Virus record (IMG/VR): IMGVR_UViG_3300031952_000071
Location: 1-35,837 of that record
From: a virus
Direction: 5' to 3' (one strand)
DNA: 35,837 nt
Shown: positions 9,964-35,837 of the stretch, one piece after another
Layout of the letters: each line of letters starts with the position of its first letter
Position numbering within the stretch: position 1 is the stretch's first letter
Position numbers and translations under genes: made by a program
Notes under the pieces: model-generated
Told to the model about the DNA's origin: nothing
The model's database searches: none
What the model saw: only the letters and a program-made list of their open reading frames with translations

Positions 9964-10194
9964 ATGAATAAAATCGGACTGCTTAAAATACTTCTATTTA
10001 ACGATAGCCGGAAAGTCGGTATTGGCCTTTGGTTTTACATTTCCACGGAGGTTTTCTTTTTAATGCGGCTCGTCGACACGCAGACATGGATGGCCTGTAA
10101 GGTTATGGCGCTTACCCTCATCGGCGGCGGGACGCTCGCGGATAAATTCATGGAGGCAAAAAAGGGGGCACCTAATGTTCCCAAACCTTCTTAA
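9964..10194 (+). CDS. Holin-like small membrane protein
   Basis: A 76-aa protein after GAGGAGGGAACAA. Hydrophobic stretches at about residues 20-37 (IGLWFYISTEVFFLMRL) and 42-57 (WMACKVMALTLIGGGTLA) could form two membrane helices, followed by a short polar Lys/Pro tail. Size, two helices, charged tail and location next to an endolysin fit a class II-like holin. Holins have no catalytic residues and low conservation, so this is architectural inference. The next gene starts inside its end. Confidence 0.55.
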   Translation: MNKIGLLKILLFNDSRKVGIGLWFYISTEVFFLMRLVDTQTWMACKVMALTLIGGGTLADKFMEAKKGAPNVPKPS

Positions 10195-13499: not shown

Positions 13500-14411
13500 A
13501 TGGAACAATTAGAACTCTTCACAGACGAAGCATTTATTTTGAGGGTCCCCTTTCCGGAGGCGATCCGGATCTTTCAGGAGAATTACTGGAACCATCTCCC
13601 TTCCGCAAAAGTAACGAAAGCCCACTTCCGCCGGCTCGCTTTATTCTTCAAAGGATATTTCCTCGATTCCATCTCCAAAGCCGACATAGAACGGTACCGG
13701 CGATGGATGAAAGAAATGGGATACGCCGAGGCCACCACCAACAAAGCGCATATGATTCTTTCCCGCATCTATCGGAAATTTGAGGAATACAAAGAGGGGA
13801 AAACCGTCAATGGGGTGGATTTTTCCCGGATAAAATTGCCGTTCAAGAATCCGGCCGCGATGGTGCCGAAGGTGAGTGAACGCCGGTTTGCCCGGACCGT
13901 CTTTATCACGAAGGAGCAAAAGAAAATCCTGTGCAGCTACGCTGATGAGGATCTATCCGAAATCATCGACGGACTGTATTGGACGGAATTAAGACCGTCA
14001 GACTTTTTCAGAATCACCGATAAAAGTATCGATTTATCGATAAGGGTTATATTCGGAATCCAGAACAAGACCATCACCACCAAAAACCCCAGCGGCGTGC
14101 CATTCAAAGTTTACATCCCAAACGACAAGATGGAGATCATCCGCCGTCGTATCGAAAACACGAAGCCGGGAACACCGCTCTTTCGACGAAAAAATATACA
14201 GAAGCGCTGGGCATGGGTACGCCTCCTGGCCAAAATGCCCTTCATCCAAATGAGAGACATCCGAGGCTCGGCGGCCAGCCACCTTTTGGATCAGGGAATA
14301 GACCCCGAGACTGTTCGGAAAACCCTAGGACATACAACCCTTCGAATGTTGCCCCTTTACGACAAGCGTCCCGAGAGTCGAATGATGGAGGCCACCCAGA
14401 TCTTGGTCTGA
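13500..14411 (+). CDS. Tyrosine recombinase (phage integrase)
   Basis: A 303-aa protein: SAM-like N-terminal core-binding domain (about 20-110) and a C-terminal catalytic domain. Visible catalytic residues are Arg165 (WTELRPSDF), a beta-hairpin Lys (Lys190 or Lys195), Arg255 (MRDIRGSAASHLLDQG), His278 (KTLGHTT) and Tyr287 (LPLYDKR). The usual first His of the HxxR box is Arg252, and the residue after the box Arg is Gly. ATG 13500 is the only usual start after the in-frame TGA at 13476 and has a poor ribosome site. The much stronger AAGGAG site serves ATG 13475 in another frame. The candidate attP lies about 220 bp downstream. Confidence 0.88.
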   Translation: MEQLELFTDEAFILRVPFPEAIRIFQENYWNHLPSAKVTKAHFRRLALFFKGYFLDSISKADIERYRRWMKEMGYAEATTNKAHMILSRIYRKFEEYKEGKTVNGVDFSRIKLPFKNPAAMVPKVSERRFARTVFITKEQKKILCSYADEDLSEIIDGLYWTELRPSDFFRITDKSIDLSIRVIFGIQNKTITTKNPSGVPFKVYIPNDKMEIIRRRIENTKPGTPLFRRKNIQKRWAWVRLLAKMPFIQMRDIRGSAASHLLDQGIDPETVRKTLGHTTLRMLPLYDKRPESRMMEATQILV

Positions 14412-17757: not shown

Positions 17758-17886
17758 ATGAATTTGCGGCTGGTAACGGCTAGGGATCTAGCCGCAAAGA
17801 AGCAACGGAAAGTAAAGGGCGGGGAACGGTCTGAGAGGGGCCTAACTCCCCGCCCGGATTTTATCAGATTGGAGGTCATGCAATGA
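17758..17886 (+). CDS. 42-aa basic protein (tentative)
   Basis: ATG 17758 follows the previous stop by one base, after CGGGGACGG. The peptide is strongly basic (RLVTARDLAAKKQRKVKGGE) and ends at a TGA overlapping the next ATG. Tight packing on both sides favours translation, but the ribosome site is mediocre. Function unknown. Confidence 0.45.
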   Translation: MNLRLVTARDLAAKKQRKVKGGERSERGLTPRPDFIRLEVMQ

Positions 17887-18728
17887 GCAAATGCACAGGA
17901 TTCAAGGGATTCGATAAAGATTTGAAGTGCCGAGGTTACCAATACAAAATCGGCGAAGAACATAAACACGAGGGAGATATCACTCTCTGCGAAAAAGGCT
18001 TTCACTTCTGCGAATATCCTCTGGATACTTTCAATTTCTACCCGCCACCGAACTCACTTTTTGCCGAGGTTGAGGGTTTCGATGTTTCTAAGAAAACAGA
18101 TTCAGATACCAAGAGGGTTTGCAAAAGATTGCTCATCAAAACCGAGATCTCATTCAAGGCGATGGTCGAAGCGGCAATAAAATTTACTTTTGATCGTGCT
18201 GATTGGTCAAAAAAAGAAAAACACGTTACCGGGGACACTGACGGCGCAGTTGAGTCCAAAGACCGGGGAGCCGCCTCCGCCACAGGATACCAGGGAGCCG
18301 CCTCCGCCACAGGAGACCGGGGAGCCGCCTCCGCCACAGGAGACCGGGGAGCCGCCTCCGCCACAGGAGACCGGGGAGCCGCCTCCGCCACAGGATACCA
18401 GGGAGCCGCCTCCGCCACAGGAGACCGGGGAGCCGCCTCCGCCACAGGATACCAGGGAGCCGCCTCCGCCACAGGAGACCGGGGAGCCGCCTCCGCCACA
18501 GGAGACCGGGGAGCCGCCTCCGCCACAGGAGAGGAAGGTTGCGCAGTCGCCCTCGGTATCGAGGGAAAAGTAAAGGGGATTAAAGGTACTTGGCTTACCG
18601 CTGCTGAATGGGAAAAAAAGGGTGGATGGCATCGCATCGACGTTAAAACTGTGAAGGTTGATGGGGAGAAAATAAAGGCCGACACTTTCTATGTGTTGAA
18701 AAAAGGTGAATTCACGGAGGTGATCTGA
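17883..18728 (+). CDS. DUF7666-type protein with ten 9-residue repeats
   Basis: A 281-aa protein after TTGGAGGTCATGCA. The N-terminal domain (about residues 1-115: TGFKGFDKDLKCRGYQYKIG, then CEKGFHFCEYPLDTF) matches DUF7666, common in phages and prophages. Residues 127-216 are ten copies of (D-R or Y-Q)-GAASATG plus a degenerate eleventh, predicting a small beta-helix. The C-terminal domain (about 230-281: GTWLTAAEWEKKGGWHRID) is shared with relatives of this family. Function is not established. The near-identical DNA of the repeats suggests recent unit gain and loss. Confidence 0.75.
   Translation: MSKCTGFKGFDKDLKCRGYQYKIGEEHKHEGDITLCEKGFHFCEYPLDTFNFYPPPNSLFAEVEGFDVSKKTDSDTKRVCKRLLIKTEISFKAMVEAAIKFTFDRADWSKKEKHVTGDTDGAVESKDRGAASATGYQGAASATGDRGAASATGDRGAASATGDRGAASATGYQGAASATGDRGAASATGYQGAASATGDRGAASATGDRGAASATGEEGCAVALGIEGKVKGIKGTWLTAAEWEKKGGWHRIDVKTVKVDGEKIKADTFYVLKKGEFTEVI
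18261..18530 (+). repeat. Ten tandem 27-bp repeats
   Basis: The unit encodes nine residues and differs mainly at two codons (gaccgg or taccag). The order of first-residue pairs is DR, YQ, DR, DR, DR, YQ, DR, YQ, DR, DR. Each unit contains a small GGAG/CTCC inverted repeat. There are no spacers, so it is not a CRISPR array. Confidence 0.95.
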
Positions 18729-21438: not shown

Positions 21439-21758
21439 ATCTTAGTGTTGTATGGGGTTGGAGAATTGGTTTCTGGGCCGAGGGGAACAAGCTCTGGGCC
21501 GAGGGGGACAAACTCTGGGCCGAGGGGGACAAACTCTGGGCTGAGGAGGGCAAGCTCTGGGCTGAGGGGGGCAAGCTCTGTGCCGAGGGGGGCAAGCTCT
21601 GTGCCGAGGGGGACAAGCTCCGGGCAGAGGGGAACAAGCTCTGGGCCGAGGCGATCATTGCCGTTCACGGCAATATCAGAATGGAATGGAAAAACTATTC
21701 TCCAGAGAAAGACGATTTCGAATGTCACTTGGAAACCGGAGAAGTATTTAAGCCATAG
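21417..21758 (+). CDS. Heptad-repeat protein (LWAEGDK repeats)
   Basis: A 113-aa protein after AAGGGGGAATCTAAA. Residues 19-74 are eight tandem copies of a seven-residue unit (LWAEGDK, with W varied to C or R and D varied to N or G), then a partial ninth. The C-terminal 36 residues (AVHGNIRMEWKNYSPEKDD and onward) form a separate small domain. A seven-residue period can form a helical or coiled-coil rod. Similar LWAEG-repeat proteins occur in other phages. Function unknown. Confidence 0.7.
   Translation: MDKSNGINLSVVWGWRIGFWAEGNKLWAEGDKLWAEGDKLWAEEGKLWAEGGKLCAEGGKLCAEGDKLRAEGNKLWAEAIIAVHGNIRMEWKNYSPEKDDFECHLETGEVFKP
21471..21638 (+). repeat. Eight tandem 21-bp repeats
   Basis: Unit close to CTCTGGGCCGAGGGGGACAAG, each coding for seven residues. 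The repeats are less uniform than the 27-bp array at 18261 and stop in a partial ninth copy at 21639-21650. Confidence 0.9.
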
Positions 21759-21778
21759 ATTTAAAGGGGGAATCCGAA

Positions 21779-21832
21779 ATGAAAGCTGAAATCATGATAA
21801 CTGGGGATTCCAAGAAAAAAGCCCATGATTGA
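21779..21832 (+). CDS. 17-aa leader-like peptide (tentative)
   Basis: ATG 21779 follows AAAGGGGGAATCCGAA. The peptide MKAEIMITGDSKKKAHD ends eight bases into the next gene. As at 18731, a good ribosome site precedes a micro-ORF overlapping a gene with a weaker start, suggesting translational coupling. Confidence 0.3.
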   Translation: MKAEIMITGDSKKKAHD

Positions 21833-23712: not shown

Positions 23713-25129
23713 CCAGCATCAGGTCATCGATGCACTCTGGGCCAAAGGAGTCTTGTGGTGGAAGCTGAAGCCTGTCCAAAAGTTAATGCACCAACGCGAG
23801 GTGTCGAGCGACTCGATGCTCTGCGTGGACAATTGCGCCCGGCAACTTGGGAAATCCTTTCGCCTCTGCGCCCGAGCCATCGGAGCCGCCATTTCTATCT
23901 CCGAAGCCATTATCCCCTTTGCCGCCCCCACCTTGAAAATGATTCGAAACATAACGATCCCGATCTTCCGCGAAATCTGTCAGGACGCCCCAGCCGACGT
24001 GCGTCCGATCTTCATCAAGTCGGAGGGGAAGTTTGTATTCCCGCACAACAACTCGGAGATCGTTCTGGCCGGCGTGAACAACGATCATGCGGACGACCTG
24101 CGGGGACGAAAAGCGCATCTGGCCATAATCGACGAGGGCGGATTCATCGACGATTTGGAATATCTGATCGAGGACATCATCTCCCCCCAGCTTTTGACGA
24201 CCAATGGCAAGATCATCATGGCCTCATCCCCCTCCCGCACGCCAGCCCATCCCTTCAAAAAATACTGCGCTCAAGCATTGAGGGAAGGCTGTTATTCCGA
24301 ATACGATATCTATCAAGCCGGATACTCCCAAGAAACTATCGAGCGGTTCAAAAAGAAAGCCGGCGGGGAGAACTCGACCACGTGGAAGCGGGAATATCTT
24401 TGCCAATTCGTAGTGGACGAAAACTATGCCATCATACCGGAGTGGAGAGCGGAATACGAGAAGGCCATCCCACGGGACGATTACTTCCGGTTTTATCACC
24501 TGTACGAATTCATGGACATGGGAGTAAAAGACAAGACGGTGGTGATCTTCGCCTATTACGACTTTTTGAACGCGCGCCTCGTGATCATCGGCGAACTCGT
24601 GATGAACGGGCCGCAAATGACCACCGAGAAACTGGCCGCGGCGATCAAGGTCAAGGAGAACACGCTCTGGGCAGGCCGGAAGGTTCACCGACGAATCGCC
24701 GACAACAACAATCCGCTCCTGCTTCAGGATTTGGGATCTCTGCACAAAATTTACTTCCAGCCGACACAAAAAGACGGGAAGACCGAAAAGACAACCATCT
24801 TGGAAGCCATGGTGAACGAGCTTCGCATCCAAGTCGGGGCCGGACGGATTGTGGTGGATCCATCCTGCATCGAGACCATTGGATGCCTCAAGTTCGGCAT
24901 CTGGAACGAACACCGGACGACCTTCGAACGAGTGGAAGAATTTGGACACTTCGACGCCGTGGCGGCGCTTATTTATGGCAACAGGGATATTGACCGGCAC
25001 ACCAACCCCATCCCAGCCAATTTGAACATCAGCCTGAACACGCACTACATAACGCCCAGTGTGCTGCGTGATCCAACGGTGGAGAGCGTGAAAAAGATGC
25101 TGAACATTAAGAGACGGAGGAGAGAGTGA
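23690..25129 (+). CDS. terL: Terminase large subunit (packaging ATPase-nuclease)
   Basis: A 479-aa protein. The ATPase domain has a Walker A variant CARQLGKS (49-56), Walker B LAIIDE (144-149) and coupling motif ASSPSR (178-183). The RNase H-like nuclease domain has acidic residues Asp277 (FMDMG), Asp339 (RIADNNNP) and Asp423 (GHFDAVAALIYG). It pumps DNA through the portal and cuts it at headful or site-specific ends. The gene starts inside the small-terminase-like gene and its stop overlaps the portal start in GTGA. Confidence 0.92.
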   Translation: MPRAHEPDQHQVIDALWAKGVLWWKLKPVQKLMHQREVSSDSMLCVDNCARQLGKSFRLCARAIGAAISISEAIIPFAAPTLKMIRNITIPIFREICQDAPADVRPIFIKSEGKFVFPHNNSEIVLAGVNNDHADDLRGRKAHLAIIDEGGFIDDLEYLIEDIISPQLLTTNGKIIMASSPSRTPAHPFKKYCAQALREGCYSEYDIYQAGYSQETIERFKKKAGGENSTTWKREYLCQFVVDENYAIIPEWRAEYEKAIPRDDYFRFYHLYEFMDMGVKDKTVVIFAYYDFLNARLVIIGELVMNGPQMTTEKLAAAIKVKENTLWAGRKVHRRIADNNNPLLLQDLGSLHKIYFQPTQKDGKTEKTTILEAMVNELRIQVGAGRIVVDPSCIETIGCLKFGIWNEHRTTFERVEEFGHFDAVAALIYGNRDIDRHTNPIPANLNISLNTHYITPSVLRDPTVESVKKMLNIKRRRRE

Positions 25130-27261
25130 TCAGACCGAATGTGGTGACTAACTCAGTCATGGAAGCCCCGCCAAACGCGGTGGGCGGATACATGTCCCCT
25201 GCCACGCCACCGGCGGCTTCCGCACCTGCGCCCGTTGACCCGAATATTGAGAAGCAGAAGCAGCAGATGGACAACCTCAACAAACGGCTCAAGGAATACT
25301 TCGCCAACAAAGACAAGACGGAGATCGCCTCCGACCTCATGAAAAAGGTGGACGCACACGTCACCTTCCTCGAAGCCTCCGGCCGGTCGTACCTCTTGAA
25401 CCGCTCATACAAATATTACTACCGGGGGATCGAGAAAAAAGGCCAGCTCGAGAAAGCCGGCGAGCAAGAGGAATACCTGATCGGCCACTTCAACCATTAC
25501 CGGAACATTTTGCAGCACCTGATCAACATGACGACCTCGGAGAAGCCGAACCTCGAACCACGTGCCGCCAACACCGACGCCAAAAGTCAAGGCCAGACCA
25601 TCATCGCCAAGGGTGCCATCGATTATTACCAGCGGGAAGCCCATCTCGACCGAATCTTTAAGAAAGCCACGGAGCACGGTGTCTATTTGAGCGAAGGATA
25701 TGTGGTGACCGAATGGGATGAGAACCTTGGGGAAGATTACGTCGCTGATCAAAACATCGGCGTCACGAAAAAGAAGGGCGACATCCGGTTCACGAACGTC
25801 GGACCCTTCGACTGCTTCTACGATTTCACGCGGGACTCATCGGCCAAGCATGACTGGCGGATCGTTCGGTTTTGGGAGAACCGATACGACTACGCGGCCA
25901 AGTATCCCGAACTGGCCGACAAGATCCTCCTCCTCGCCAAGGACGACAAGAACCCCCGCAATCGGCGCCCGTGGTTATCCGACACGCAAGACTCCGATCT
26001 GATCCCCGTTTACCGTTTCTACCATGCGAAGACCCCGGCCGTACCGGAAGGGCGGTTTGTGGAATTTCTCTCAAGCGATTTGGTGACGCTGGATGGTGGC
26101 CTGCCCTACCGGCGCATCCCCGTTTACCAAATGATGCCGGACGAACAAGACGGGACGCCCTTCGGCTACACCATCGCCTTCGACCTCCTCCCCATCCAAG
26201 AAGCAATCGATGGTCTGATCAACACCATTCTGACCAACGCCGCCACCTTTGGCGTCCAGAACATCGCCATCCCGGACGGAGCCAACATTGACGTGGTGGC
26301 CGTGTCCGGTGGCCTGAATATCATCAAATTTGACTCCAAAACCGGCAAACCCGAGATCCTCGAAATGCTCCATACCCCGCCAGAACTTTTTAACTTCGTG
26401 ACCATGCTCGTCCAAATGCTGGAAACCCTGTCCGGCCTGAACTCCGTGGTGCGCGGGAACCCCGAGGCCAGCCTCAAAAGCGGCGCGGCACTCGCCCTTG
26501 TGGCCAGTCAGGCCATCCAGTTCAACTCCGGGCTCCAACAATCCTTCGCTCAACTTTGCGAAGACGTTGGGATGGGGATTCTGGACATCCTGAAGGAATA
26601 CGGAGATACCCCACGAATTTCGGAGATCGCTGGGAAATCAAACCGTCATTACATGCGGTATTTTAAAGGCGAGGAGATCAAAAACGTGAACCGAGTGACC
26701 GTGGAACGCACCAACGCCCTCTCCGCCACCACCGCCGGCAAGATGCAGATCGCAGACACCCTGCTGGAACGGAACCTCCTGCACACCCCGGAGGAATACA
26801 TCCAGCTCGTGACGACCGGCCGGCTGGAACCCCTCCTCCAAGCCCAACAGAACCAACTGACCCTCATCCAAGCCGAGAACGAAGACCTGTCGGACGGCAA
26901 AGAGGTGACGGCCATCCTGACAGACGACCACGTTTTGCACATCCGCGAGCATCAGGCCGTTCTTGCCAGCCCAGAGGCACGCCAAGACCCGAATATCGTC
27001 CAAGTGACACTCAACCACCTCCAACAGCACATGAGGCTGTTATTGGGCGGTGACCCCATTTTAGGACTTCTTGGACAGCCCGTAATGCAGCCTCCGGCAC
27101 CCATTCCTCCCTCACCGGGCGGGAACGGAACCAAAGGCGGCGCAGCGGACGTCATAGACGTCACGAATCCAGTCATAAAAGCAGCCGACAAAGTGAATAT
27201 TGCCTCACAACCAACTAATCCGGCCACGGGGGAGAAGTACAACCCTGTGACAGGTCAATAA
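25126..27261 (+). CDS. Portal protein (P22-like size)
   Basis: A 711-aa protein, close to P22 gp1 (725 aa). GTG 25126 is chosen because CGGAGGAGAGA precedes it; an in-frame ATG at 25159 has no site. A Pro/Ala-rich N-terminus precedes the core. Portal-like features include LEKAGEQEEYLIGHFNHYRN, the SGLNSVVRGNPEASLKSGAA region (about 440-460) and a Gln-rich helical C-terminus (LQAQQNQLTLIQAENE), matching the long barrel-forming helix of P22-type portals. It forms the dodecameric DNA channel at one capsid vertex. Confidence 0.85.
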   Translation: MIRPNVVTNSVMEAPPNAVGGYMSPATPPAASAPAPVDPNIEKQKQQMDNLNKRLKEYFANKDKTEIASDLMKKVDAHVTFLEASGRSYLLNRSYKYYYRGIEKKGQLEKAGEQEEYLIGHFNHYRNILQHLINMTTSEKPNLEPRAANTDAKSQGQTIIAKGAIDYYQREAHLDRIFKKATEHGVYLSEGYVVTEWDENLGEDYVADQNIGVTKKKGDIRFTNVGPFDCFYDFTRDSSAKHDWRIVRFWENRYDYAAKYPELADKILLLAKDDKNPRNRRPWLSDTQDSDLIPVYRFYHAKTPAVPEGRFVEFLSSDLVTLDGGLPYRRIPVYQMMPDEQDGTPFGYTIAFDLLPIQEAIDGLINTILTNAATFGVQNIAIPDGANIDVVAVSGGLNIIKFDSKTGKPEILEMLHTPPELFNFVTMLVQMLETLSGLNSVVRGNPEASLKSGAALALVASQAIQFNSGLQQSFAQLCEDVGMGILDILKEYGDTPRISEIAGKSNRHYMRYFKGEEIKNVNRVTVERTNALSATTAGKMQIADTLLERNLLHTPEEYIQLVTTGRLEPLLQAQQNQLTLIQAENEDLSDGKEVTAILTDDHVLHIREHQAVLASPEARQDPNIVQVTLNHLQQHMRLLLGGDPILGLLGQPVMQPPAPIPPSPGGNGTKGGAADVIDVTNPVIKAADKVNIASQPTNPATGEKYNPVTGQ

Positions 27262-27271
27262 GGAGACTTAT

Positions 27272-28315
27272 ATGAAAACAGCCCGACGCATTCTCGTAAC
27301 ACTTCTGGTCGCGGCCGGACTGATCCTCGCGTCTGGGCCGTTGCGACCAACTTTCGCAGAGATAATTTATAGTGCCGATCTCGTGAACAATTCATGTTTG
27401 GCGACAAATGTAAATTACGACCTTACTCTTGATGATATTGATGGTCTATCCATACAGGTAATCTATTCGAGCACCAGCCTTTCCAGTAAAACATTTTTGG
27501 ATGGGAAAAAATCTACGGCCACCATTACCGTTTCATCTAATACTTCACTTGTTGGAGGAAAACTCGCCATCTACACAGTTCGTCTTGATGAAGGGAATCA
27601 ATGGACGGCGATGACAACGGCATCAGGGACGGCAAAATCAATATCGGACGCCATTATGGCCAACTCAACACTCTCGTCGATTATCACCGCTACATGGTCA
27701 AGTGCTGGCGTGGTCAGCGCAACCTCGAATGTCGTTGGCACAAATCCTTATACTCTTTATACTTCGACCAATGCTGCGCTGCGACTTAATGGATCAGCCT
27801 CCAATAATAGTGATATATTTTTAAATGGTTCGGAGTCTAATGTTGATCTCACGACGGATTTGATCACTGTCACTGGCCATGGATTTGGTACAGGTGTCGC
27901 AATCCTCTATTCCACAACCGCACTAACCGGAATAACCGGACTTGTGAACCAGACAACTTATTACATCATCCGCAATGATTACGACCGAATTCAACTTGCA
28001 TCGTCCTTGACAAATGCTATCGCTGGTACCGAAATTAATATGTCCGCTCAAACCGGAGGCGGGACTTATACACTAACTCCGATAGGAATATCCGGTACAT
28101 TTACATCCAAGTTGCAAGGTGGAAACGACGGGACAAATTTTTCTGATCTATACATCGATTTAAACCAATGCTCCATTTCCTTCGCATCCCCTTTTACCGC
28201 TTCTTTTATCGTCTGGGATTTAGGGCAGGTTTATTTCAAATTTCTTCGATTAGTGCATACGACTGGTACATGGGGATGCATTAATCTAAGAGGTCTTGTC
28301 AATGGTAAAAAATAA
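27272..28315 (+). CDS. Protein with signal peptide and phage beta-domains, unknown
   Basis: A 347-aa protein after AAGGAGACTTAT. Residues 1-29 look like a Sec signal peptide (RRILVTLLVAAGLILASGP, then FAE). The rest is Thr/Ser/Asn-rich and beta-structured. Residues about 65-150 resemble the small phage structural domain also found in the 33848 gene. Residues about 195-270 (VTGHGFGTGVAILYSTTAL, TTYYIIRNDYDRIQLASSL) resemble fibre-type repeats. The DNA is clearly more AT-rich than neighbouring genes. It lies between portal and scaffold and may be an added surface or secreted protein working with the GH27-like enzyme. Confidence 0.6.
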   Translation: MKTARRILVTLLVAAGLILASGPLRPTFAEIIYSADLVNNSCLATNVNYDLTLDDIDGLSIQVIYSSTSLSSKTFLDGKKSTATITVSSNTSLVGGKLAIYTVRLDEGNQWTAMTTASGTAKSISDAIMANSTLSSIITATWSSAGVVSATSNVVGTNPYTLYTSTNAALRLNGSASNNSDIFLNGSESNVDLTTDLITVTGHGFGTGVAILYSTTALTGITGLVNQTTYYIIRNDYDRIQLASSLTNAIAGTEINMSAQTGGGTYTLTPIGISGTFTSKLQGGNDGTNFSDLYIDLNQCSISFASPFTASFIVWDLGQVYFKFLRLVHTTGTWGCINLRGLVNGKK

Positions 28316-28325
28316 GGAGATTTTC

Positions 28326-31124
28326 ATGAAGAAATTACTATTTTCGACTGCTTTTATTGTCGGTATGTCGATGTTTTTGTTCGGTGAATCCAACTATAAT
28401 TTTACCGGAACCGATAAGGTTTACACGTCACAAAAAGACCAACCAGATGGCTATGCTGGAATAGACGAAGATGGGAATGTGATAAAAGCTCCCGAAATAA
28501 TGGGCGGATTGGACAAGGCAAAATCTGTTTTATTTAATCCGCCACCGCCGCAATTGCCGACCGATCCGCAAGGAGATTGGGATTTCACTGTATTGAATGC
28601 CACCGCCACAATCGTGCCGAACAAAGCGATGTGGATATGGAAAACAAATGCCGGAGCATATTTCAATGGAAACGGCGTCAGCATAGTTACGGTCACCTGG
28701 ACTTCCCACGGATTCGTGACTGGTAGTACTCTGAACATTCAGGGAATCTATCAGAAACCCAGCTATTGCGGGCAATTCCCGATCGTAGTGGACAACGCAA
28801 ATCAATTTCACTACACATATACACCAGGCGAGTCCGGCGTTGGCGCTGGGTTTGCTCAGGTTTGGAGGCAAGTTGATTGGACAATTGAAAACCGAATTCC
28901 TGGCACCGTCACAATCGTTAATTCAACAATGACTGGAATTCCTGGAGTGACGTTCACTAATACAAGCTCAACCTATCCATTAACTGGTGCCGGTGCAACT
29001 ACGCCAGACCTTGCAGAAATTCCTTGGGTTGGGCCATGGACTATGATTGTGGTTGGTCAGCCTTGGTCGAACATCTATGGAAATAAAGGATATTTTGGAC
29101 TGGATTATAGCAACACAATTGACCAGAAATCCTACAGTGGCAAACCAATCAGCCGAAATGCTCATACTCCGACAACCGTCATAAATGACAGACCTGCTTA
29201 CCATTATTGGAACACCTTTATCGTTTTAAAAGTTGGCAATCCCTATATCCAAGTAAATGACGAGTATTCTACGAATGATTTTATTGCTTATCCGTATAGC
29301 AACGCAGGTCATTTTGCCATTCAAAAATTGGGGACTATGTATCCTCAAGGGATTTTTCGGGTTTCGTACATCTTGTTTTACAATCGTGAATTGACTGATA
29401 CCGAAATTTATCAGGCATGGGGGTATTTGAACAATTATCTGGCACCCAAAGGAATTGACCTGACTTACTCAAGACCTCCCCTGTCAAAAACTATTGAACC
29501 CAATTTTAAACCAGGCGGATTATTGACCAAACCGTATATGGGCTGGGCCAGTTTTGGGCGATTCGTTTGGTCATCCGGTGCGCAGATCGTCAAAGACACG
29601 GCGTTGGCGATCAAAAATTTGGGGCTGGATAATTACGGATACAACTATGTGATAAACGACGGAATTGTAAATTCCACCTACGATAAACCGTACAGGGACA
29701 TTTACGGAAAAGCCACCAATATCGATCACCTTTTCCCTTCCGGGATTAAAGATGTGGTCGATTATGTTCATGCCCTGGGTTTAAAGTATGGGCATTATTC
29801 TCTTACGTCTGGAAATCAACCTGGACTTACGACAAATGATTACTATGTTTTTGTAGGGAGCGAAGAGCGTGAATTTCAAGATGCACAGGATTTTGCGGAT
29901 TATGGAATAGACTTTCTCAAATATGATACTTGGGGGACAAATTCCAGGTATTTACAAAGACTTGATGCGTGGGGCATTAATTCTCTTACTGAAAGTTATT
30001 CTCAAATGGCTTTGGGGTTAAAATCGACTGGGCGACCGATTTTATTCAATGCCGCCGTTGGGGCCGGACGGTCACCTTATGCAAATGTGATGAGGAAATA
30101 CGGCGCGTGTTCAGCCAGAATTACAACTGACTTGGCTCATACGACGGATACAAGTTATCCAAAATGGAATATCACCGCCGCTTCATGGAATCACACCACA
30201 AAAACTTTAACTAAAACGGCTGGTTTCGCTACCTATACCTATGTCTCAGGTGATGTAATCAGAATAATAAGCGGAACCGGTGTCGTGCCTGGGATTTATT
30301 CTATCGCCAGCAAAGTTTCTGACAATGCCTTAACGTTAGCTTCGGAGATCACTTCGGCAGGAACAGACCCCAGTGATGTGGCTGTTAATGGAGATCCACT
30401 TGCTGGCATAGGCCGGGGCATCGGAATTTGGACTGGAATTGAGGCTCAGTTTGCATTTTACGACACGGCAAGCACGACTACGTATCCTCTAAATGACAGT
30501 AGGATACAAGCCTCATGGACTGGCCCTGGAATGGGTTATTTTCCTGATCCAGATTGGCTAGTTGTTCCCGATTATTTGAACGGTACAATCAATCCACTTG
30601 GACTTACTGCCGTTGAAGGAAGGACGAGTTTCAATTTCTGGTGCATGCTGGCCGCTCCCCTAGTGTTGGATACTGATCTGAGAACACTTCAAGTGACTGA
30701 TCCGACTTATACCATTATCACCAATACTGACCTGATAAACATAGACCAAGATCTCCTTTGCTGGCAAGCCATTAGAGTAGGTCATGATTTACATTCTGCG
30801 ACCAATACCGACGTTTGGGCCAAACCTCTCTCCGATGGATCATGGGCGATTGGATTTTTTAATCGGGATGGTAGCAACACTCGTACAATCGAAGTCGATT
30901 GGAGCGAAATTTACGGAGCAATCAACTCAGCTTACACCTGGAATAAAGTCGATCCCAATATTTCCAATTATCCAAGTTTTGCCAACGCGCAACCAACCAC
31001 AATTGGAACAACTGATTTGTCCGGAAATAGTTTAACAATAAGTCTCGTCGGTGGTGGCGCCACCGGCGTCCAGGCCGTGAATGTCCCAATCCATGGTTGC
31101 GCTATCATAAAGGTGAAACCATGA
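28326..31124 (+). CDS. Secreted GH27 alpha-galactosidase-like enzyme with lectin-like domain
   Basis: A 932-aa protein; ATG 28326 after ATAAGGAGATTTTC is preferred to the upstream in-frame start at 28296. Residues 1-20 are a signal peptide. About 225-385 look like a concanavalin/LamG-type module (LFYNRELTDTEIYQAWGYL). From about 402 the GH27 pattern appears: PYMGWASFG, GIKDVVDYVHALGLKYGHYS, the nucleophile region FLKYDTW (Asp534), the acid/base region ARITTD (Asp602), GPGMGYFPDPDW, SFNFWCMLAAPLVLDTDL and ITNTDLINIDQDLL, then the C-terminal beta domain WAKPLSDGSWAIGFFNRDG. A phage-type beta insert of about 75 residues follows Asp602. GH27 enzymes remove alpha-linked galactose or related sugars. 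It may act on host surface glycans or as an exported enzyme. Confidence 0.8.
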   Translation: MKKLLFSTAFIVGMSMFLFGESNYNFTGTDKVYTSQKDQPDGYAGIDEDGNVIKAPEIMGGLDKAKSVLFNPPPPQLPTDPQGDWDFTVLNATATIVPNKAMWIWKTNAGAYFNGNGVSIVTVTWTSHGFVTGSTLNIQGIYQKPSYCGQFPIVVDNANQFHYTYTPGESGVGAGFAQVWRQVDWTIENRIPGTVTIVNSTMTGIPGVTFTNTSSTYPLTGAGATTPDLAEIPWVGPWTMIVVGQPWSNIYGNKGYFGLDYSNTIDQKSYSGKPISRNAHTPTTVINDRPAYHYWNTFIVLKVGNPYIQVNDEYSTNDFIAYPYSNAGHFAIQKLGTMYPQGIFRVSYILFYNRELTDTEIYQAWGYLNNYLAPKGIDLTYSRPPLSKTIEPNFKPGGLLTKPYMGWASFGRFVWSSGAQIVKDTALAIKNLGLDNYGYNYVINDGIVNSTYDKPYRDIYGKATNIDHLFPSGIKDVVDYVHALGLKYGHYSLTSGNQPGLTTNDYYVFVGSEEREFQDAQDFADYGIDFLKYDTWGTNSRYLQRLDAWGINSLTESYSQMALGLKSTGRPILFNAAVGAGRSPYANVMRKYGACSARITTDLAHTTDTSYPKWNITAASWNHTTKTLTKTAGFATYTYVSGDVIRIISGTGVVPGIYSIASKVSDNALTLASEITSAGTDPSDVAVNGDPLAGIGRGIGIWTGIEAQFAFYDTASTTTYPLNDSRIQASWTGPGMGYFPDPDWLVVPDYLNGTINPLGLTAVEGRTSFNFWCMLAAPLVLDTDLRTLQVTDPTYTIITNTDLINIDQDLLCWQAIRVGHDLHSATNTDVWAKPLSDGSWAIGFFNRDGSNTRTIEVDWSEIYGAINSAYTWNKVDPNISNYPSFANAQPTTIGTTDLSGNSLTISLVGGGATGVQAVNVPIHGCAIIKVKP

Positions 31125-31205: not shown

Positions 31206-32168
31206 ATGACAACAGCAGCCCCAGCAGCCCCAGCAGCACCGGCCGCAGTGCCGGCATCAGGAACATCCGGAGGATCAGCGGATCCGACAAAGGCGGCAGG
31301 CCAACAGCCTCCCGCAAGCGGAACGTTACCCAATGGCCAACAGCCACCGGCAGGACTCACGCCGGCAGAGAAGCGTCAGTGGAAAATGGCGATCAATGGC
31401 AAAGAGACTGATTTGGACATCACCGGGATCGAGTTCAAGGACCCGAAACTTGAGGAAAAGCTCAAGATGCTTGTCCAGAAGGGACTCGGCGCCGATGAGA
31501 AGTTTCAGCACTCGGCCAAAGTCGAGGTCATGCTGCAGCAGTTCATTCACTTGCTGAAAACAGATCCGGTCAAAGCTCTGCGCCACCCTCTGATCGGCCA
31601 TGATATGCGGAAACTGGCTGAGGAGTTTCTGGCCAATGAACTGGAACGGGAAGGCATGGACCCGGAGAAACGGGCGATCATGGAGGAACGGGAAAAGCTC
31701 GAAGCGGACAGGGATGAACTCAAGAAACAGACTGAGGATGCGAACCAAAAGAAGGTTGAGGTACTCCGCGAACATTACAGCAAGGAATATTCGACCGACA
31801 TCCTGACCACACTCAAGACCTCCGGCCTTCCACAGTCGCCGCGGACGGTTCAACGCATGGCGCACTATATGTATGAGGGCTTGAAACGCGGCATCGAACT
31901 CAAGGCTTCCGATGTTTTGCCGATTGTTCGCCAAGATTACATCGAAGACATCAAGGCCATCATGGGAGGACTTGACGAAGACGCGCTCTACGCTCTTGTC
32001 GGGGACGAAATCGCAGGGAAGATCCAGAAGGCCGGGATCAGTAGATTGAAGCGGCCAGGAAACCTTGTGCCGAAAGAGCAGCAGCCCCCGGCCGGAGGAG
32101 AGCCGCCGAAGCCGCCGAAGTACCGCTCGACAAACGACTTCGAAAAACTCGTCAATGAAAGAATTTGA
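31206..32168 (+). CDS. Scaffolding protein
   Basis: A 320-aa protein after AAAGGAGAAAACATC. The N-terminus is an Ala/Pro/Gly-rich disordered region (1-50). The middle is highly charged and helical (EREKLEADRDELKKQTEDAN), typical of coiled-coil scaffolds. The C-terminal region is Pro/Lys-rich and ends in a short charged helix (RSTNDFEKLVNERI) that could bind coat protein. Its place directly before the major coat gene is the standard one. It would direct procapsid assembly and leave before or during packaging. Confidence 0.75.
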   Translation: MTTAAPAAPAAPAAVPASGTSGGSADPTKAAGQQPPASGTLPNGQQPPAGLTPAEKRQWKMAINGKETDLDITGIEFKDPKLEEKLKMLVQKGLGADEKFQHSAKVEVMLQQFIHLLKTDPVKALRHPLIGHDMRKLAEEFLANELEREGMDPEKRAIMEEREKLEADRDELKKQTEDANQKKVEVLREHYSKEYSTDILTTLKTSGLPQSPRTVQRMAHYMYEGLKRGIELKASDVLPIVRQDYIEDIKAIMGGLDEDALYALVGDEIAGKIQKAGISRLKRPGNLVPKEQQPPAGGEPPKPPKYRSTNDFEKLVNERI

Positions 32169-32460: not shown

Positions 32461-33732
32461 ATGGCTACAATAGCTACAAACCTATCCGGTCTCTTTAAGG
32501 AAACCTATGCGGACGTAGTGATCCAACTCGTCCCCGAGGTGGCCAAGCTGGTGAAGATGGTGGATTTCGTCCCCAGCGATAAAGAGATTGGAAATCTGTA
32601 TCACCAACCCGTGATCGTGAACAACGAGCACGGCGTGACGTATGCGGCTCAGAACGGCGGAGCGTTCACCCTGAACGCGGCCATCGCCATGAACATGCAG
32701 GACGCCCAAATTCCCGGAGCGCAGATCATCCTGCGATCCGCCATCGATTACGAATCGGCTGCGCGCGCCTCGAACGACAAGAAAGCGTTTGTGAAAGCGA
32801 CCAGCCTTCTCGTCAAAAACATGATGGAGTCAATGCGCAAACGTGTGGAAATCGCGTGTTGGTACGGCACAGATCCAGACGGGATTGGCCAAGCATCGTC
32901 CAGCGTGAACACCGACACCACCCACACCGTCGTTCAGATCTCCACCGCCTCATGGGCGACCGGAATCTGGGCCGGTATGGAGGGATCGAAGATCCAGTTC
33001 TATCTTGATTCGAGCGATGCTCTGATCTCGAGCTCGACGGACTCCATCTTTGCGATTGACTCTGTGGATGTGGACAATAAGAAGCTGACTGTGAGTGGGA
33101 CAACCACCGGGATCAGCGCTCTTGACACGGCTCTCGCTGCGGCCTGCAACATCTTCTTCAACGGCGCCAAGGCGAAAGAAATGAGCGGACTCTCGAAAAT
33201 TCTTCAAAACACGGGAAGCCTGTTCAACATCAGTGCCACCACTTACAACCTCTGGCGGGCCAATTCTTACAACGTGTTGAGCACGGCTCTCACGTTCGGG
33301 AAAGCGGTCGCCGGGTTGGCGAATGCGGTTGGCAAAGGTCTCGAGGAAAAGGTGACCCTTTGGCTGTCCCCGAAAACGTGGGGCAACCTGAACACCGACC
33401 TCGCGGCTCTTCGCCGGCTGGATTCTGGATGGCGAGCATCGAAAACGGAGGCTGGAACGCAGAACATCAGCTACTACAGCCAGAACGGTGAAGTCGAGAT
33501 CGTGTCTCACTCGATCATCAAAGAAGGCGAAGCGATGGCAATCCCCATGGCCCGCGTGAGGCGGCTCGGGGCAGTTGACATTACCTTCAAAACCCCTGGC
33601 ATGGGAGACGATGAGTTCTTCCTCCACTTAGCGGATGCGGCTGGATTTGAGCTGCGCTGCTACACCGACCAGCACATCTTCTTGGAGACACCGGCCAAGG
33701 CGGTGAGGTATTACGGGATCGTCAACACCTAA
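32461..33732 (+). CDS. Major capsid protein (P22/N4-gp56-type coat)
   Basis: A 423-aa protein after AAAAGGAGAAAAGGAT, one of the best ribosome sites in the genome, as expected for the most abundant virion protein. Features: N-terminal arm (LFKETYADVVIQLVPEVAKL), a beta/hinge region with VNNEHGVTYAAQNGG, long helices (KKAFVKATSLLVKNMMESMR), an insertion-like domain (about 150-240), and a C-terminal HK97-type core (KVTLWLSPKTWGNLNTDLAA, GFELRCYTDQHIFLETPAKA). Scaffold precedes it and decoration genes follow. Confidence 0.85.
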   Translation: MATIATNLSGLFKETYADVVIQLVPEVAKLVKMVDFVPSDKEIGNLYHQPVIVNNEHGVTYAAQNGGAFTLNAAIAMNMQDAQIPGAQIILRSAIDYESAARASNDKKAFVKATSLLVKNMMESMRKRVEIACWYGTDPDGIGQASSSVNTDTTHTVVQISTASWATGIWAGMEGSKIQFYLDSSDALISSSTDSIFAIDSVDVDNKKLTVSGTTTGISALDTALAAACNIFFNGAKAKEMSGLSKILQNTGSLFNISATTYNLWRANSYNVLSTALTFGKAVAGLANAVGKGLEEKVTLWLSPKTWGNLNTDLAALRRLDSGWRASKTEAGTQNISYYSQNGEVEIVSHSIIKEGEAMAIPMARVRRLGAVDITFKTPGMGDDEFFLHLADAAGFELRCYTDQHIFLETPAKAVRYYGIVNT

Positions 33733-34861: not shown

Positions 34862-35569
34862 ATGCTATCAAAGCGCATTAAGACTTTAATCGGAGCCGGC
34901 CTTCTCCTTTCGGCGTATGCCGTGGGAGCCGCCGCCACCGTTCGATACGTGGAAATAAGAAGCACACTCCAACCCGGAACCACGGGGCAGGGGCCGTGCG
35001 TCTCATCGGGAACCGTCAAGGAACTCTACACCGACACAGTTACTGTCCGTCAAAATCTAAACGCGAGCGTGGCCACTATGTCAAGCGCGACGATCTCGAC
35101 CGTCTATTCAACGTCAGGCACATTCTCTGGGATTTTATCGGGCAAAGGCGTTACCAACGGGGGCAACGCCGATGTCGGATGGATCGGGCAATATGTTTCC
35201 TCATCGACTTTAGCTATTAACGGCCCCGCTTTGAATGTATGGGGGGATATAATTAGCATCCCATTGACGGCTGGCGATTGGGACGTAGCGATTGGATGTG
35301 TATTTACACTTAACGGAGCGACTGGACTTGACGACCTGTTTATTGGAGCAAGCACAACCGCTGGAAACAGTTGGACTGGAATGGTTGCCGGGATAAGTCA
35401 ATTGGAGCTCGCATTCCCTATCGGCATACAACCAACAGGATATTCCCTCCCCCGAATTCGCATTTCAATCAGTTCACCGGCGACGGCCTACTTAAAGGTT
35501 TTCTTAGGGGGGTATTCCGGCGGACCGATTAAGGTTGCTGGCGGGATAACAGCGAGAAGGGTTCGATAG
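34862..35569 (+). CDS. Signal-anchored fibre-type protein
   Basis: A 235-aa protein after AAAGGAGAACGATC. Residues 4-24 (KRIKTLIGAGLLLSAYAVGA) form a signal peptide or membrane anchor. A Thr/Ser/Val-rich shaft-like region (45-100) precedes a C-terminal beta domain (ISIPLTAGDWDVAIGCVFTL and the final ARRVR) that I recognise from phage fibre C-termini. A hydrophobic leader on a virion-type domain is unusual and links it to the two signal-peptide genes at 27-31 kb. Confidence 0.55.
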   Translation: MLSKRIKTLIGAGLLLSAYAVGAAATVRYVEIRSTLQPGTTGQGPCVSSGTVKELYTDTVTVRQNLNASVATMSSATISTVYSTSGTFSGILSGKGVTNGGNADVGWIGQYVSSSTLAINGPALNVWGDIISIPLTAGDWDVAIGCVFTLNGATGLDDLFIGASTTAGNSWTGMVAGISQLELAFPIGIQPTGYSLPRIRISISSPATAYLKVFLGGYSGGPIKVAGGITARRVR

Positions 35570-35577
35570 GAGATTTT

Positions 35578-35837
35578 ATGAAAATGACATACGAAGTTAA
35601 AAAGAAATTGCTCGAGGAACTCATGGAAATGATGGACGACATGAGTTCAGGGACCCTTCCCAAAAAGAAAGGCGGGATGATGATTTCCATGGAAGCCGGA
35701 GACGACAGCGAACCTGATCCGACTGACCAGGGGGAACCCGGAGAAGGTGAGGACGATGAGGATATGCAAGGCATGGACCCGCGCCTCATGGAACTCATCA
35801 AAAAGAAAAAGGCTGAAAAAATGTCTGGAATGAGGAT
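35578..35837 (+). CDS. Small acidic/basic protein, N-terminal part (continues at 1-204)
   Basis: ATG 35578 follows GATAGGAGATTTT. The visible part covers 86 of 89 codons and, through the terminal repeat, joins the segment ending at 204. The N-terminus is a charged, Met/Leu/Glu-rich helix (KKKLLEELMEMMDDMS), followed by the Lys/Gly, acidic and Lys-rich segments described at the left end. At the polymorphic position this copy has Glu where the left copy has Lys. Confidence 0.8.
   Translation, partial: MKMTYEVKKKLLEELMEMMDDMSSGTLPKKKGGMMISMEAGDDSEPDPTDQGEPGEGEDDEDMQGMDPRLMELIKKKKAEKMSGMR
35644..35837. repeat. Right copy of 194-bp terminal direct repeat
   Basis: It matches 1-194 except at 35710 (G here, A at 67). 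See the left copy. Confidence 0.95.

Follow-up and report, generated by a model that had tools for sequence, protein, structure and literature searches.

The present study describes a gene for a glycoside hydrolase, P0001, that carries a predicted Sec signal peptide and lies in the structural operon of a phage, directly after a second gene, P0002, whose product is also predicted to begin with a signal peptide. Both were found in the window, by which we mean the whole stretch of 35,837 nucleotides that makes up positions 1 to 35,837 of IMG/VR record IMGVR_UViG_3300031952_000071. As judged from profile matches over the cut-off and from both catalytic aspartates, P0001 belongs to glycoside hydrolase family 27 (GH27). 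Sequence comparison further indicates that the GH27 gene and the end of its partner are a mobile cassette maintained by selection, and it sits in a slot where related phages hold fibre-type genes. Neither the family nor the occurrence of enzymes in fibre slots is new; the novelty lies in the predicted exported form and in the fact that it recurs. Our preferred reading, tentative and given a little under an even chance, is that the two genes could encode a host-recognition module that is exported by Sec and joins the virion late, at lysis, with P0001 as its enzymatic half.

Genome and structural operon

The two ends of the window are identical over 194 bases (1-194 and 35644-35837), which suggests a circularly permuted or terminally redundant genome. 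Since the gene order of a sister phage, L004 (capsid protein 84% identical, same gene order), in addition continues across the window ends, the genome of about 35.6 kb is probably complete. The operon runs from the terminase and portal genes through P0002 and P0001 to a conserved gene and the major capsid protein (MCP) gene (Table 1), and tight ribosome-binding sites and 10-base spacings make it continuous through the cassette. The initial annotation had located the GH27 gene between portal and scaffold, and this position is borne out, with the name scaffold given by position, as the gene at 31206-32168 matched no family in Pfam or PHROG.

The lysis genes comprise an NlpC/P60 endolysin without a leader, a holin-like gene next to it and a possible i-spanin at 10175, a set that suggests a Gram-negative host. 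A tyrosine-type integrase gene (13500-14411, PF00589 1.1e-8) suggests that the phage may be temperate. Comparisons with defence systems, NCBIfam, Rfam and plasmids gave no match. Two open reading frames of the window could code for collagen-like phage proteins, one at 17883-18728 with DUF7666 and collagen-like repeats and a second at 21445-21789 with SGPRGTN-type repeats.

Table 1. Positions of the cassette, its parts and the neighbouring genes in the window
Feature	Position	Strand	Basis
Portal protein (P22-like), left border of the slot	25126..27261	+	phrog_156 3.4e-21, PF16510 2.7e-9
Partner gene P0002, 347 aa: signal peptide, tail-type middle domain, jelly-roll (predicted)	27272..28315	+	rule, model, PHROG
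Predicted Sec signal peptide of P0002 (site TFA-E, residue 29/30)	27272..27358	+	sequence, rule
Stretch common to L002, 82% nucleotide identity: last ~75 codons of P0002 and whole GH27 gene	28088..31124	+
GH27 gene P0001, 932 aa	28326..31124	+	ATG start; Pfam, PDB matches
Predicted Sec signal peptide of P0001 (FLFG-ES site)	28326..28385	+	eye and rule
Putative lectin/LamG-like region, residues 186-395	28881..29510	+	likeness to L004 GDSL protein
GH27 barrel, first part, residues 398-604	29517..30137	+	Pfam, PDB 1uas, alignment
Codon of D534, probable catalytic nucleophile (KYD)	29925..29927	+	alignment
Codon of D602, probable acid/base (RxxxD)	30129..30131	+	alignment
86-aa insertion in GH27 barrel directly after the acid/base	30138..30395	+	alignment gap
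GH27 barrel, second part, residues 691-815	30396..30770	+	PDB 1uas, alignment
C-terminal beta-sandwich, Melibiase_C region	30771..31121	+	PF17801 3.5e-9 at residues 827-871
Conserved gene before MCP, probable scaffold, right border of the slot	31206..32168	+	57% identity L004, 27% L013
Major capsid protein	32461..33732	+	phrog_14242 4.3e-7; 84% identity in L004
Third signal-peptide gene, fibre-type C-terminal domain, after the capsid genes	34862..35569	+	rule; phrog_11393 tail fiber 0.0012

Domain organization and active site of P0001

The ATG start of P0001 is preceded by TAAGGAG and by an in-frame TTG at 28296, and a relative in another contig, L002, with an 88% identical protein starts at the same residue as the ATG. 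The protein is laid out as a signal peptide, a lectin-like region and a GH27 catalytic domain. Pfam Melibiase_2 matched it in two stretches, including residues 420-576 (E 1.9e-22, 80.3 bits against a cut-off of 23), and Melibiase_C matched with 37.1 bits against a cut-off of 22.9, so that the profile search proposed in the initial annotation placed the core inside GH27. A phmmer search of the PDB returned rice alpha-galactosidase 1uas (E 6.8e-33), aligned over two separate segments (residues 398-584 and 728-865), as well as other GH27 structures.

The roles of residues in GH27 (nucleophile, acid/base, substrate-binding Asp pair, CEW loop) are taken here from what we understand of the family in general. 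D534, within FLKYD, aligned to the nucleophile motif and D602, within RITTD, to the acid/base motif, the alignment partners being L002, L021, L022, L023 and L025; D534, R598, T600 and D602 were invariant in the alignments of P0001 with GH27 proteins. Thus, the GH27 core with both aspartates that had been read from the letters of the window stands, as does the homology behind the term alpha-galactosidase-like. The specificity which that term implies is doubtful, because the substrate-binding pair is N444-D445, with Asn in place of the first Asp, and the CEW loop (SLCEW of alpha-galactosidases) reads NAAV, A-A-V replacing C-E-W. With these two features against plain specificity, alpha-galactosidase activity of P0001 is not assured.

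The barrel motifs, KYD, RxxxD and the C-terminal beta-sandwich are common to P0001 and GH27 alpha-galactosidases (rice 1UAS, human GLA 1R46, 4NZJ). P0001 differs from them in N444, in AAV for CEW, in the 86-aa insert beside the acid/base, in the N-terminal lectin-like region and in its setting in a phage structural operon. The insert is a gap in all other aligned GH27 proteins except L002 and had no relatives in the phage records searched; the lectin-like region was likewise not seen in the other GH27 proteins aligned. No family model matched residues 186-395 in Pfam and other profile searches; when compared against shuffles they resemble, with z 7.1, the lectin-like region of an L004 protein that has a GDSL domain, and the fold may accordingly be called lectin-like or LamG-like. 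A full-length AlphaFold model from a three-sequence alignment had a pLDDT of 29. The GH27 domain showed no significant match to any phage fibre family in PHROG, and the best match of P0001 to such families was a weak one to phrog_529 (E 0.048) within residues 94-195.

Signal peptides

The N-terminus of P0001 is MKKLLFSTAFIVGMSMFLFG, followed by ES, a textbook Sec leader, and that of P0002 is MKTARRILVTLLVAAGLILASGPLRPTFA, followed by E. A third protein with a signal peptide, the product of 34862-35569, begins MLSKRIKTLIGAGLLLSAYAVGAAA. Leader-bearing proteins of L006 (15242-16471) and L014 (1663-5877) share the C-terminal domain of this third protein. All signal peptides were called by eye and by a home-made rule. 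The leader ascribed to P0001 in the initial annotation was recovered in this way. That annotation had missed the signal peptide and the equally foreign base composition of the upstream gene 27272-28315, as well as the third signal-peptide gene and the identical ends of the window. The leader of P0001 is preserved in L002 despite seven non-synonymous changes there.

It could be that these N-termini are hydrophobic segments that stay uncleaved and anchor or trimerise a virion appendage without any export. Relatives of P0002 occur with and without a leader in the same slot, so that the leader is a separable N-terminal addition, which speaks for such a role. The leaders, however, have basic n-regions, h-regions and signal-peptidase-like sites, they recur on unrelated fibre types, and known fibre relatives are without such a segment; we regard this explanation as improbable.

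Base composition and transfer of the cassette

P0002 and P0001 have the lowest GC3 among the genes listed (0.402 and 0.418), as compared to 0.71 for the large terminase (TerL), 0.72 for the portal, 0.64 for the scaffold-position gene and 0.72 for the MCP, in line with the earlier remark that the GH27 gene is more AT-rich than its neighbours; the GC content of P0001 is 0.444. The 88% identical relative of P0001 lies on L002, an 11.5 kb contig of IMG/VR. The 82% nucleotide match between the two contigs is confined to the end of P0002 and the whole GH27 gene, and no further nucleotide match to L002 was found in the rest of the window. The TerL and portal of L002 are unrelated to those of the window phage, and its cassette is placed between the terminase and portal genes with a P0002 relative directly upstream (the L002 genes being named by sequence and position). 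Between P0001 and L002 the dN/dS is 0.086 for the whole gene and 0.06-0.115 in each mature domain, the insert having 0.115; such low values indicate that the active-site domain is under selection. It is this match in an otherwise unrelated phage, together with a dN/dS of about 0.09, that marks the GH27 gene and the end of its partner as a mobile, selected cassette. The gene had been taken as a lone oddity, and that view falls, since P0001 is half of a two-gene cassette that moves between unrelated phages and stands in a fibre-type slot.

The abrupt change in base composition would also be expected of an artefact, that is, a host gene or a chimeric contig. This is hardly credible, as the independent contig L002 has the same two-gene cassette in another phage, the tight ribosome-binding sites and 10-base spacings carry the operon on, and leader-bearing genes fill this slot in the sister L004 as well.

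The same slot in related phages

The P0001 gene occupies the portal-scaffold slot, in which related phages carry fibre-type genes. L004 has there a P0002 relative (43%) and two more leader-bearing proteins of 353 and 634 aa, which have a common N-terminal segment directly after the leader (z 13.3 against shuffles). The 634-aa protein contains a GDSL hydrolase domain (PF13472 1.8e-10), and its C-terminal part has a relative in the minor tail protein of a Streptomyces phage. In 11 related records the slot contains a small protein of 112-203 aa, often followed by a tail-fibre-type gene, and none of these has a leader; the leaderless slot relatives are L013, L019 and L038-L049 (capsid protein about 40%; L013 and L049 are one contig). 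In some of these phages the small protein shows a sequence relationship with the last part of P0002, and the gene after it is often related to the fibre of L013 (phrog_11439 tail fiber), the membership of fibre-like genes in the slot being partly judged by eye. L011, with a terminase of 37% identity, has a P0002 relative with a leader and two further leader-bearing genes. In L019 and L047 the open reading frame of the capsid gene is without its 5' part, and small HNH-like genes lie beside it (L019 5010-5468, L047 9504-9986), which suggests a homing endonuclease or an intron in the major capsid gene.

The arrangement extends further. A scan with four P0002-type queries found P0002-type proteins at 18 IMG/VR loci, 17 besides the window, and in several unrelated phages the P0002 relative bears a leader and the next gene codes for a large fibre-type protein that bears one too. 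One of these, in L009, is a tail fibre with an S74 chaperone domain (tail-fibre PHROG 3e-18, Peptidase_S74 7.2e-10). By a fixed rule, leaders were present on 9 of 11 partner genes, on 5 of 11 next genes (at least 150 aa) and on 7 of 141 other genes of the same records, with two leaderless phages counted in (Fisher p 4e-10, a guide only, as homology to the partner was the criterion for choosing the loci and some of them are related to each other). None of 14 fibre-type control proteins had a leader (12 from phage records and two from L013 and L019). The fibres of tailed phages are generally taken to be assembled in the cytoplasm, and a partial literature search, weak evidence in itself, found no report of leader-bearing ones. 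Leader-bearing fibre-type proteins form a wider phage pattern, apparently undescribed so far. In L014 (1663-11637) four consecutive signal-peptide genes coding for 245-1404 aa, some with fibre-like repeats, come directly after a P0002 relative.

The partner protein P0002

P0002 has PHROG tail matches at 1e-7. Its AlphaFold model, built with 13 relatives, has a pLDDT of 86.8 and predicts a jelly-roll made from N- and C-terminal strands around a middle domain. The modelled middle domain matches domains of phage tail sheaths and of T7-type tail nozzles (8kee, Z 12.5, rmsd 1.9, 90 residues; 9jyz, Z 9.0). For the modelled jelly-roll the best solved match is XepA of prophage PBSX (6i56, Z 10.1, rmsd 2.5, 102 residues, 10% identity), which other jelly-rolls trail at Z 8 to 9, among them a chain of phage capsid 8cjz (Z 8.6); the link to XepA is thus at the level of fold only. 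BFVD matches of the model were phage baseplate, tail-fibre and structural proteins with low TM-scores.

A possible exported appendage or secreted effector

How could such a pair function? The late operon would make P0002, as a jelly-roll base or partner, and P0001, with a lectin-like region and a GH27-type glycosidase. The host Sec system would carry both to the periplasm, where the leaders would be removed. At lysis, periplasm and cytoplasm would mix and the pair could join the virion as a glycan-cutting receptor-binding appendage, whose lectin-like region and GH27 domain would meet envelope glycans; there the GH27 domain may cut off an alpha-linked sugar, or bind to it. In this scheme the enzymatic activity and the specificity for a sugar are suppositions, as are export and late joining. 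Tailspikes of P22 are known to be able to attach to completed heads outside the cell. An appendage on the virion is favoured because the slot of the relatives holds fibre-type genes and because no other leaderless fibre or receptor-binding candidate was found in the genome, in which several virion-operon genes are without known relatives. Among the roles proposed in the initial annotation, the evidence therefore leans to a host-surface appendage or depolymerase module. Against it, Sec export should separate P0001 and P0002 from heads that are assembled in the cytoplasm. If XepA is a guide to P0002, it also points the other way, since it is reported to be exported while the phage develops and to be missing from mature particles (PMC6834076).

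The same likeness is the main support for a secreted effector, a reading that is less probable and ranks close behind that of a virion appendage. P0002 and P0001 would then be secreted or anchored outside the infected cell without entering the virion, and would change surface glycans; they could thereby block superinfection, keep new virions off debris or open the envelope or a biofilm at lysis. Both genes have clean Sec leaders, which would not serve lysis timing, since the endolysin is without a leader and is followed by a holin-like gene, and the integrase leaves room for a temperate phage. Against an effector, on the other hand, speaks the structural slot, in which relatives have leaderless fibre-type proteins; the genome would be left without an evident receptor-binding protein, and S74 and tail-type domains are found on leader-bearing relatives at other places.

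A secreted glycosidase could also free sugars for the host, as an auxiliary metabolic gene of the kind proposed for a soil-virus chitosanase. Soil viruses are known to encode active glycoside hydrolases (PMC9485262), and the other GH27 genes that were met (L021, L022, L025) look bacterial. P0001, however, is coupled to a jelly-roll partner in a late structural operon, and the sister L004 has other leader-bearing genes instead, one with a GDSL domain. The lectin-like region and the insert are not in other GH27 proteins aligned, and no transport or metabolic genes were noticed nearby. We consider such a role very improbable.

The preferred appendage reading may have a general form, in which a set of unrelated tailed phages export their host-recognition appendages, each a jelly-roll base with a fibre or an enzyme as its tip, via Sec to the periplasm and add them to virions only at lysis, when the compartments mix, GH27 being one exchangeable enzyme tip. 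This is rather unlikely, and we know of no report of a tailed phage that is assembled in this way.

Comparison with known systems

P0001 resembles tail fibre and tailspike depolymerases of podophages in the slot between portal and MCP, in its putative lectin-like and hydrolase modules, in cassette swapping and in having a partner protein. It differs from them in that both P0001 and P0002 have Sec signal peptides, and in that the enzyme belongs to GH27 instead of being a beta-helix lyase or an endosialidase. XepA and YomS of the Bacillus prophages PBSX and SPbeta have a jelly-roll like that of P0002, a likeness of fold only; unlike P0002, they have no GH27 partner and their proposed function is lysis. 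The mosaic adhesive trimer (MAT) fibres of Bdellovibrio are phage-fibre-like, have a signal peptide and in some cases S74, and bind glycans outside the cell (PMC10769870); they are bacterial genes, whereas P0001 and P0002 are phage genes. V-Csn, the soil-virus chitosanase described as an auxiliary metabolic gene, is like P0001 a glycoside hydrolase of an environmental virus but of a different family, and a term search of its paper for export or a fibre slot gave nothing (PMC9485262).

Because the same leader-bearing partner and fibre-type proteins occur in several unrelated phages, and the slot also has leaderless relatives, appendage export can be tested directly. If appendages are exported, the question becomes how virions get them, or whether phages release decoy or receptor-removing fibres. 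A GH27 gene in a phage structural operon is also a possible source of new glycan-cutting enzymes.

Host and distribution

Neither P0001 nor the partner alignment had relatives in scans of 84,980 genomes, which hence gave no prophage and no host. By TerL and MCP the nearest phage is one of Silvanigrella (Bdellovibrionota), with 30% and 24% identity, too distant for an inference of the host; its portal lies elsewhere, without this slot. The hint from Silvanigrella towards MAT-like predator adhesins was set aside, as no MAT match was found, and a PDB search with the leader-bearing fibres of L009 and L014 gave no match to MAT fibres. GH27 in a phage structural operon appears to be very rare: pattern scans of IMG/VR, of limited sensitivity, returned only L002 and a gene at a prophage edge, and a further IMG/VR scan for GH27 nothing additional. 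GH27 matches from gut contigs labelled as phage (L021-L023) were rejected as comparable cases, the contigs carrying bacterial-type genes. The gene at the prophage edge (L025, 202-1731) was likewise rejected, for it adjoins the prophage and is probably a host gene.
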